A stretch of 64,000 bases of DNA from NCBI GenBank assembly GCA_021787435.1, contig JAJYLY010000001.1, positions 124,001 to 188,000 on the forward strand, given 5' to 3'. The stretch comes from Pseudomonadota bacterium. Its GTDB lineage: Bacteria; Pseudomonadota; Gammaproteobacteria; Burkholderiales; Gallionellaceae. The notes under the pieces are model-generated. The model ran no database searches. It saw nothing but the letters and a program-made list of their open reading frames with translations, and was not told the DNA's origin. Shown here piece after piece: positions 51,222 through 54,100 of the stretch; position 1 is the first letter of the stretch, and every line of letters begins with the position of its first letter. A program made the position numbers and the translations under genes.

Positions 51222-51316
51222 GGCGCGAGAGTTTAGCCTAAGCCTGCAGCCGTTGCCATAAAACAAAAAACGCAGTAAAGTTCGCACTTAGACCAATTCT
51301 CTTGAAGGAGAATGCG

Positions 51317-51616
51317 ATGCCTATCTCAAGCGCCAACCTCAATCCAGCCTCAAGCAACCCGGCTAATTCCCTGTCCGGCCAGGTGCAGTCACCTTCTGCT
51401 AAACCACCCAAGCCAGACTCGCAGTCCTCCACGATCGTGACCCTGTCAGAACAGGGCAGGAAGCTTAGCCAGTCACAGCACTCCGGTTCTTCTCAGGCGA
51501 ATCAGGCGCAACAGAGTTCCCATGCCAGCCAGACGCCCAAAGATACCAGCCATCGGCCCGGCATACCGGCCATCGAAGGCGAAACCAGAAACGGGCGCGT
51601 CAGCACTTATGCCTGA
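51317..51616 (+). CDS. Small Ser/Gln-rich protein, unknown
   Basis: The product is 99 residues. AAGGAG six bases before the ATG at 51317 is a strong ribosome site. The composition is extremely rich in Ser, Gln, Pro and Ala, with one more ordered segment, SSTIVTLSEQGRKLSQSQ, which looks like a short helix. It has no signal peptide and is probably disordered. It lies 64 bp upstream of the cyclase-hemerythrin gene on the same strand and could be co-transcribed with it. No family is recognised. Confidence 0.6.
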   Translation: MPISSANLNPASSNPANSLSGQVQSPSAKPPKPDSQSSTIVTLSEQGRKLSQSQHSGSSQANQAQQSSHASQTPKDTSHRPGIPAIEGETRNGRVSTYA

Positions 51617-51680: not shown

Positions 51681-53054
51681 ATGAGTTCCGATTTCGAACC
51701 CCCCGAAGTCCATTTTGAAGACATATCTCGCGAGCTTGCCGCCGAACGCGAGGCACATGCCGGCACGCGTGCAAGGCTGAAATTGCTGGAGCGCACCCTG
51801 ATGCGCTTCGTGCCGCTCAATCTGATCGACTTTCTGGGCAAGACCGACATACAGGACGTGGAACTGGGAGACCAGGTCGAGAAATCCATGTCCGTCGTGT
51901 TCACCGACATCCGCGACTTCACTTCGCTGTCCGAGAGCATGACCCCGCAGCAGACCTTCAACATGATCAACTCGTATTTTTCGGTGATGAATCCCGTCAT
52001 CACCGCGCATCACGGCATCATCGATAAATACATGGGTGATGCGATCATGGCTCTATTTCCTGCTACGGCAGACGATGCGCTGAACGCTGCGCTGTCCATG
52101 CTCGCAAGACTGAAGGATTACAATGCTGGGCGGGAGCGCGCAGCCTATGCCGCGATACGCATAGGCATAGGCGTGAATACCGGATTGCTAATGCTGGGCG
52201 TGATAGGCGGGGTAAACCGCATGGAAGGCACGGTGATCAGCCATGCCGTCAACCTCGCTTCGCGCCTACAAACCCTGACCAAGACCTATGGCACGCCGCT
52301 ATTGATCAGCGAGCATACGCTCTACAGCCTGGCCGAACCGGAAAACTTTCTGGTGCGCCATCTGGGCCGCGTCAAGGTTGCCTACAAGACACATCCCGAA
52401 CCCATCTACGAGGTATTCAATCACGATGCGCCCGATGTCCGTGAAAAGAAATCCAGCACATTGAGAAAGTTCGAGGAAGCACTGGCCCGCTACCACAGCC
52501 GCGATGCGCTCAAAGCGCGTCCCATGCTGGAAGAGATCTTGCGCGACAATCCGGCAGACATCCCCGCTAGAGTTTATCTGCGGCGCTGCGAGGATTTTCT
52601 GAAGACCGGCCTTTACAACGGCTCAGAAGAATTCACCGGGGATATCGCATGGCGCAGCGAATATCAAATAGGCATCCCTGAATTTGATGCTCAGCACAGT
52701 GAATTGATAAGCCTGATAGAAGCGCTGCAAGATGCATTCATGAGCGGGGATGAACATACAACAGTGCTGCTGCAAAAACTGGAAGGCGGCATCCGCAAGC
52801 ACTTCGAGCATGAAGAACAGCTGATGAGCAGGCATCTCTATCCTTTCGCGGCAGACCACATCGCGCAACATCATTCGTACCTGAAATCTTTCGGAAGACT
52901 CAGGGAAGAGATCGCGACCCATGCAGGAGACCGCTGGTACACCGGTTTTCGCATCAAGCTTACTCTGGCAGAATGGATGCTCAACCATTCCAATCGCGAC
53001 GACCGGCATCTGGGCAGGTTCCTGATCGATCGCGGTATACTCGAAACCATCTAG
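51681..53054 (+). CDS. Class III nucleotide cyclase fused to bacteriohemerythrin
   Basis: The product is 457 residues in three parts. Residues about 68-245 form a class III cyclase domain with metal-binding D76 (FTDIRDFT) and D120 (KYMGDAIMALF), K117 and the NLASR motif (N191, R195); Thr at the base-selecting position suggests adenylyl cyclase (inference). Residues about 255-312 are a TPR-like helical linker. Residues about 322-452 form a hemerythrin domain with all seven di-iron ligands: H339, H374/E378 (HFEHE), H393/H397 (HIAQH), H436 and D441 (HSNRDD). Hemerythrin domains bind O2 or sense redox/NO, so the protein is probably an O2- or redox-controlled cAMP source. No membrane segment is present. 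The Ser/Gln-rich small protein is upstream and ygfZ is 38 bp downstream. Confidence 0.88.
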   Translation: MSSDFEPPEVHFEDISRELAAEREAHAGTRARLKLLERTLMRFVPLNLIDFLGKTDIQDVELGDQVEKSMSVVFTDIRDFTSLSESMTPQQTFNMINSYFSVMNPVITAHHGIIDKYMGDAIMALFPATADDALNAALSMLARLKDYNAGRERAAYAAIRIGIGVNTGLLMLGVIGGVNRMEGTVISHAVNLASRLQTLTKTYGTPLLISEHTLYSLAEPENFLVRHLGRVKVAYKTHPEPIYEVFNHDAPDVREKKSSTLRKFEEALARYHSRDALKARPMLEEILRDNPADIPARVYLRRCEDFLKTGLYNGSEEFTGDIAWRSEYQIGIPEFDAQHSELISLIEALQDAFMSGDEHTTVLLQKLEGGIRKHFEHEEQLMSRHLYPFAADHIAQHHSYLKSFGRLREEIATHAGDRWYTGFRIKLTLAEWMLNHSNRDDRHLGRFLIDRGILETI

Positions 53055-53092: not shown

Positions 53093-54100
53093 ATGCAAGC
53101 AGACTGGCAACAATTTTTGGCCTCACAGGGTGCAATCATCAAAAACGGCAAGGTTCTGCACTTCGGCGACATCCAAACAGAACTTGCCGCAACATCGAAA
53201 CAGGACACGCTGTGTGATCTCGGGCAATTTTCAATCCTGCGCGTATCCGGAGAAGATGCGCAGAGTTTTCTTCAGAACCTCCTGAGCAACGACATCAAGG
53301 AAGTCACCGCTGCACGCGCGCAGCACTCTAGCTTCAATACCGCGAAGGGAAGGATGCTGGCAAGCTTTCTGATCTGGATGGAGGACAATGACTACCTGTT
53401 GCTGCTGCCCGACACACTCTCCGAAATGCTGCGCAAGAAGCTCTCCATGTATGTGTTGCGCGCCAAGGTAAAGATTGCGCAGGACGAAAAAATCGCATTG
53501 GGCATCTCTGGCCCCACCATAAAGCCGCCCATGGATTGCGGCGAACTGCTTGGCGTGGCAAAGACCGAAAACACCCATGTAATCAGACTCGATGAAGCAC
53601 GCTTCATGCTTTGCACCTCGCTCGAAAATGCCAGAACGCTCTGGCAGGAGTTTGCAAGCCATGCAAAACCCGTAGGCAGTCCATGCTGGGACTGGCTCAA
53701 CATCCGCTCAGGCATCCCCGTGATTGTCGAAGAAACCCAGGAAGAGTTCGTGCCGCAGATGGTGAATTTCGACCTGATAGGCGGGATCAACTTCAAGAAA
53801 GGCTGCTACCCCGGACAGGAAATAGTCGCGCGCATGCACTACCTTGGCAAGCTCAAACGGCGCATGTATCTTGCGCATGTGGACAGCCCTGCAAAACCGG
53901 GCGACCACCTCTACAGCGAGGACATGGCAGGACAATCCAGCGGGATGATAGCCAATGCAGCCGCAGCCCCTGACGGCGGATACGATGTGCTTGCGGTGGT
54001 GCAGATCGCAAGCCACGACGCGCATCCCATACACATGGGCTCACTGGAAGGTGCAATACTGCATTTCGAGCCGCTGCCCTACGCGTTACCGTCAGCCTGA
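53093..54100 (+). CDS. ygfZ: tRNA-modifying / Fe-S maintenance protein YgfZ
   Basis: The product is 335 residues. The YgfZ signature KGCYPGQEIVAR (about 238-249), with its conserved Cys, lies in a GcvT-like folate-binding fold, and the N-terminal LRVSGEDAQSFLQNLLSNDI is typical. YgfZ uses tetrahydrofolate in maintenance of Fe-S enzymes, including the MiaB tRNA methylthiotransferase. The ATG at 53093 is used; a longer frame starting at 52973 overlaps the cyclase gene. Its 3' end faces the GNAT gene 27 bp away. Confidence 0.93.
   Translation: MQADWQQFLASQGAIIKNGKVLHFGDIQTELAATSKQDTLCDLGQFSILRVSGEDAQSFLQNLLSNDIKEVTAARAQHSSFNTAKGRMLASFLIWMEDNDYLLLLPDTLSEMLRKKLSMYVLRAKVKIAQDEKIALGISGPTIKPPMDCGELLGVAKTENTHVIRLDEARFMLCTSLENARTLWQEFASHAKPVGSPCWDWLNIRSGIPVIVEETQEEFVPQMVNFDLIGGINFKKGCYPGQEIVARMHYLGKLKRRMYLAHVDSPAKPGDHLYSEDMAGQSSGMIANAAAAPDGGYDVLAVVQIASHDAHPIHMGSLEGAILHFEPLPYALPSA

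Follow-up and report, generated by a model that had tools for sequence, protein, structure and literature searches.

The closest described counterparts of the protein treated here are Bhr-DGC and Bhr-HD-GYP. Bhr-DGC has ten times the activity in the diferrous form that it has as the diferric protein, Bhr-HD-GYP shows activity in its reduced state only, and both enzymes are inactive with azide bound (PMC9388753). In the hemerythrin motif, Fe1 is bound by three histidines and Fe2 by two, a glutamate and an aspartate bridge the two irons, and O2 binds at Fe2 (PMC9388753). Surveys of hemerythrin architectures list chemoreceptors, GGDEF proteins, histidine kinases and related outputs (PMC4919030; PMC2556348), and no class III cyclase appears in a review from 2022 (PMC9388753). 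The literature that we searched, with most subscription papers outside its scope, contained no description of this pairing either, in agreement with an earlier note on this DNA that was not aware of any described class III cyclase with a C-terminal hemerythrin. Sensor and enzyme are each known; it is the pairing that is apparently undescribed, along with an unusual loss of ligands in relatives.

Domain organization and structural models

The window, i.e. the whole stretch of 64,000 nucleotides that was analyzed (contig JAJYLY010000001.1 of a Gallionellaceae assembly), contains an open reading frame with the start, stop and length that the earlier note had given. Its features are as follows (window positions):

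51681-53054, plus strand: whole gene for a cyclase-linker-hemerythrin protein of 457 amino acids, stop codon included; start position common to near orthologues
51714-51809, plus strand: N-terminal helix, residues 12-43, probable coiled coil (dimerization or signalling); AlphaFold model, and alignments to photoactivated adenylate cyclases reach over the helix from about residue 17
51867-52427, plus strand: class III cyclase catalytic domain, residues 63-249, with Asp76, Lys116, Asp120, Thr184, Asn191 and Arg195; Pfam PF00211 on 68-234, PDB matches to CyaB, Cya2, CyaC and photoactivated cyclases
52431-52607, plus strand: helical TPR-like linker, residues 251-309, four helices; AlphaFold model, weak TPR matches in homologues only
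52608-52646, plus strand: residues 310-322, a tether modelled with low confidence and probably flexible; block 311-320 has a mean pLDDT of 59
52647-53021, plus strand: C-terminal bacteriohemerythrin domain, residues 323-447; TIGR02481, phmmer match to DcrH, fold match to DcrH-Hr
52695-52697, plus strand: His339 of helix A, a ligand of Fe2; present in 76/91 homologues
52800-52802, plus strand: His374 of helix B, a ligand of Fe2; present in just 37/91 homologues
52812-52814, plus strand: Glu378, bridging ligand; kept in 90/91 homologues
52857-52871, plus strand: His393 and His397, Fe1 ligands, helix C; each in 91/91 homologues
52986-53003, plus strand: His436, Fe1 ligand (90/91, one gap), and Asp441, bridging ligand (90/91)

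The AlphaFold model of the whole protein (mean pLDDT 86, pTM 0.82, input alignment of 25 sequences) places the helix of residues 12-43, a cyclase fold, four short helices at 251-309, a low-confidence stretch at about 310-322 and a four-helix bundle in this order. The Pfam model Guanylate_cyc matches the front part with E 1.1e-18 and 68 bits (cutoff 21.9), and all six residues listed above are present at the metal (Asp76, Asp120), substrate-specificity (Lys116, Thr184) and transition-state (Asn191, Arg195) positions of class III cyclases. The class III cyclase with both metal aspartates and the NxxxR motif that the earlier note had read from the sequence is thereby borne out, and the six residues are invariant in 91 of 91 distinct full-length homologues. 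In sequence searches, the best solved relatives of this part are CyaB, Cya2, the photoactivated adenylate cyclases and CyaC; in structural comparison the modelled front part matches photoactivated cyclases with Z of about 22-23 and both Cya2 and CyaB with Z 21.5-21.7 at 1.8-1.9 Å. At the position of Lys116, sequence alignments place a Glu in the guanylyl cyclase Cya2 and a Lys in the adenylate/guanylate chimera 6fht. The Lys116/Thr184 pair is of the adenine type and IIIb-like, which points to ATP as the predicted substrate.

A TPR-like linker, also proposed in the earlier note, holds up as far as the four predicted helices between residues 251 and 309 are concerned, while its relation to TPR is only weakly backed: a Pfam scan of the window protein yielded no TPR match with E <= 1, and two homologues gave weak matches below the cutoff.

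Since the structural matches of the full-length model span mainly residues 17-249, a separate model of the hemerythrin part was made and used for its own structural search. It adopts a four-helix fold (pLDDT 90) that superimposes on met-azido DcrH with Z 18.8 and 1.9 Å over 131 residues, and all fourteen top structural matches are hemerythrins; DcrH is also the best solved relative of the rear part by sequence (phmmer E 1e-9). The TIGR02481 profile matches residues 323-447 with 81 bits against a cutoff of 51.75. The stricter NF033749 scores 81.5 bits, just under its cutoff of 84, and the broader Pfam model Hemerythrin reaches 24.2 (cutoff 25.3) in the protein scan and 28.3, just above the cutoff, in the genome search. 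The seven di-iron ligands are complete (H339, H374, E378, H393, H397, H436, D441) and fit the motif H-HxxxE-HxxxH-HxxxxD, as had been claimed before. In hemerythrin structures, the histidines of helices C and D form the Fe1 trio and those of helices A and B the Fe2 pair. From its residues, the domain would be expected to bind iron.

Occurrence of the cyclase-hemerythrin architecture

Among named genomes, the nearest are metagenome-assembled ones of Gallionella and Gallionellales. Relatives in Gallionella are microaerophilic Fe(II) oxidizers that grow in narrow gradients of Fe(II) and O2 (PMC3770913). In the source assembly (2.73 Mb, 98.6% complete), profile searches detected four class III cyclases and a single hemerythrin, which is the window protein itself, and in one single-contig relative five TIGR02481 matches were found, four of them above the cutoff and the cyclase-hemerythrin among them. 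For strain ES-2, the gene list of Emerson et al. contains three hemerythrins and no cyclase category (PMC3770913).

Matches spanning both domains are present in 73 of the 150 sampled genomes of the family (hand count) and in ten of its fifteen sampled genera. The architecture also occurs in a few other families of the order (sample of 399 genomes), and full-length matches were found in further families of the phylum sample. The architecture is thus common rather than singular. Some of the phylum-level homologues carry an additional response-regulator receiver (REC) domain (L091, L097, L113), and an N-terminal cNMP-binding domain together with PAS is confirmed by Pfam in L092 and L095. Cyclase plus linker alone is common to many other cyclases, and among plasmid sequences there was no match covering 80% of the query. 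The spread of full-length homologues over genera, families and architectures argues for the cyclase-hemerythrin unit as a recurrent module and not a local accident. Chance or artefact as the source of the fusion is ruled out by the 91 homologues, the profile scores and purifying selection.

Two further observations concern relatives with extra domains. The cNMP-binding and PAS domains that precede the cyclase-hemerythrin in L092, L093, L094 and L095 may provide a product-feedback input within the same chain. Single frames of about 721-725 amino acids (L076/L084 in G567:C333 and L078/L085 in G711:C205) feature two tandem matches to class III cyclase plus linker; they come from a different family of the class and have two cyclase domains per polypeptide.

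Conservation of the di-iron site

The set of 91 distinct full-length homologues allows the fate of the ligands to be followed. All seven are kept in 28 sequences and at least one is missing in 63. Six related genomes supplied 68 hemerythrin domains of non-cyclase proteins as controls, and 59 of these have the complete set. The difference is most pronounced for the helix-B His, which is present in 37/91 cyclase-hemerythrins and in 65/68 controls (Fisher p 5e-14, ignoring relatedness). A tree from which the hemerythrin domain was left out requires six changes (range 5-7) in the state of this residue, five of them forced by well-supported branches, and the losses fall mostly into one clade of the family. 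All 18 members of the clade that includes the window protein have the helix-B His; the helix-A His is gone in four of them and the bridging Glu in one. In the study of Bailly et al., 18% of the bacterial hemerythrins had altered ligands, mainly in helix C and mainly in single-domain proteins (PMC2556348), so that the pattern of loss in cyclase-hemerythrins differs from theirs. With the Fe2 and O2-binding half damaged in so many relatives, O2 binding is not conserved across the family.

A His located one helical turn earlier is found in 38 of the 54 homologues without the helix-B His, as compared with three of the 37 that have it and 13 of the 68 controls. Independent pairs never went in the same direction, and they were too few for significance (median p 0.5). 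The shift of a His within helix B is thus suggestive only. An example of a His one turn before the lost Fe2 ligand is seen in helix B of the protein encoded at L128:3964-5337, whose seven ligand positions read HLEHHHD.

These data bear on a family-wide drift away from O2 chemistry, in which the Fe1 side (three His plus the bridging Glu and Asp) would be the selected feature and an iron- or redox-responsive site need not bind O2. Such a drift agrees with the retention of the Fe1 histidines in 91, 91 and 90 of 91 homologues and of Glu and Asp in 90/91, as set against the much rarer helix-B His, and with the enrichment of the shifted His where that residue is lacking. It is nevertheless unlikely, given that the losses lie mostly in one clade and trace back to a handful of changes on the tree, that the shifted His falls short of significance on independent pairs and that the window protein itself is canonical and still has both sides of the site. 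Similarly doubtful is a remodelling of the di-iron site within hemerythrin-linked adenylate cyclases in which cAMP would depend on O2, redox or iron status, with Fe1 and the bridges kept, the helix-B His lost and possibly a His moved by one turn, which would make the domain an iron or redox sensor rather than an O2 sensor.

When the window gene was compared with four near orthologues, dN/dS was about 0.07-0.09 in the cyclase and 0.14-0.41 in the hemerythrin part; both domains are therefore under constraint, the hemerythrin less so.

Genetic environment and potential effectors

In close relatives, the gene is surrounded by genes for a peptide transporter, ygfZ and tadA, and no operon partner pointing to O2, redox or cAMP was found among these neighbours. 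A stable functional operon was considered and rejected, as the neighbours common to close relatives over some kilobases lack a link to O2 or cAMP. The ygfZ-like gene (named by eye; window 53093-54100) lies on the same strand, downstream after a gap of 38 bases, a position that is kept in close relatives and not in the wider family. Just upstream, also on the same strand, an open reading frame for a Ser/Gln-rich protein of 104 amino acids (window 51302-51616) has matches of 54-93% identity in the nearest relatives only. About half of the loci of the ligand-deficient clade directly follow a phosphoglycolate-phosphatase-like gene (named by eye).

The source genome contains eleven matches to the cNMP-binding domain. 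One of the scanned proteins has a Crp-type helix-turn-helix and looks FNR-like, and others are single-domain, kinase-fused or placed after hydrophobic segments. A CRP with an intact cyclic-nucleotide pocket was not found among these matches (pocket residues read by eye), and the search for a CRP-type effector gene that had been proposed as a check thus led only to a regulator of FNR-like appearance. Likely effectors are the single-domain, kinase-fused or membrane proteins predicted to bind cyclic nucleotides. One protein of the same genome, G000:C8:34723 (L060), combines a protein kinase domain with a C-terminal cNMP-binding domain and is a possible cAMP effector.

Proposed function

We propose, with a probability of roughly 0.6, that the gene encodes a soluble class III adenylate cyclase in which the C-terminal di-iron hemerythrin domain sets the activity through its redox state. 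The protein would act as a homodimer, presumably held together by the N-terminal helix. The diferrous centre, at low O2 and high Fe(II), would correspond to one activity state, and exposure to O2 would lead via autoxidation to the diferric state and to a changed output of cAMP. Switching by the redox state of the di-iron centre, as in Bhr-DGC and Bhr-HD-GYP, is the most economical reading, and activity in the reduced state could be assigned as the sign of gating by analogy only. A redox-switched cAMP signal suits organisms that live in gradients of Fe(II) and O2 (PMC3770913).

Invariant catalytic residues, seven ligands, the fold match to DcrH, the Gallionella lineage and the low dN/dS of the cyclase speak for a redox-gated cyclase. 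On the other side, a ligand is missing in 63/91 homologues including 5/18 of the window clade, the dN/dS of the hemerythrin part lies above that of the cyclase and there is no operon partner hinting at control by O2 or redox. In the model, moreover, a low-confidence tether appears in place of a rigid signalling helix and leaves the route of coupling free. The flexible tether, the faster evolution of the domain and the losses of ligands would also fit a hemerythrin domain that serves as an O2 scavenger or buffer, a metal store or a docking module and happens to be fused without being a regulator, and O2 storage has been proposed for hemerythrins in Sideroxydans ES-1 (PMC3770913). We regard this as quite improbable, because the fusion recurs in most of the sampled genera of the family and in several domain arrangements that include further inputs, and because the partners identified in long hemerythrin proteins are most often signal-transduction domains (PMC4919030). 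A product other than cAMP, be it cGMP, cUMP or a different cyclic nucleotide, is very improbable, since the adenine-type Lys116 and Thr184 are invariant (91/91), even though the guanylyl cyclase Cya2 is among the close structures and a cUMP synthase appears lower in the list.

If redox gating of the cyclase is true, hemerythrin-based sensing extends from c-di-GMP and chemotaxis to cyclic-nucleotide signalling, which would matter for organisms holding their position in opposing gradients of O2 and Fe(II). Members with seven ligands and ligand-deficient members provide a natural contrast for the need of Fe2 and O2 binding in hemerythrin signalling.

Comparison with known systems

The window protein shares with Bhr-DGC from Vibrio cholerae and Bhr-HD-GYP from Ferrovum sp. 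PN-J185 the fusion of a bacteriohemerythrin to a second-messenger enzyme, and Ferrovum is an iron oxidizer, too. In both of these redox-regulated proteins the hemerythrin is N-terminal and c-di-GMP is made or degraded (PMC9388753), whereas the protein described here, known from sequence, has a C-terminal hemerythrin and a class III cyclase. The C-terminal position is shared with DcrH from Desulfovibrio vulgaris, the best match in sequence and fold, which differs in that it is a chemoreceptor of the membrane and has MCP as its output (PMC9388753). OaPAC, bPAC and class III cyclases of the CyaB/CyaC/Cya2 type resemble the window protein in the catalytic domain and the preceding helix (Z about 20-23), but they sense through domains other than hemerythrin, which is BLUF in the photoactivated enzymes. 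Finally, the non-cyclase bacteriohemerythrins of the Gallionellaceae and McHr have the same fold and the same ligand motif as the window protein, while these non-cyclase proteins are single-domain or fused to other outputs and nearly always keep the helix-B His (65/68 in six genomes) that so many cyclase-hemerythrins have lost.
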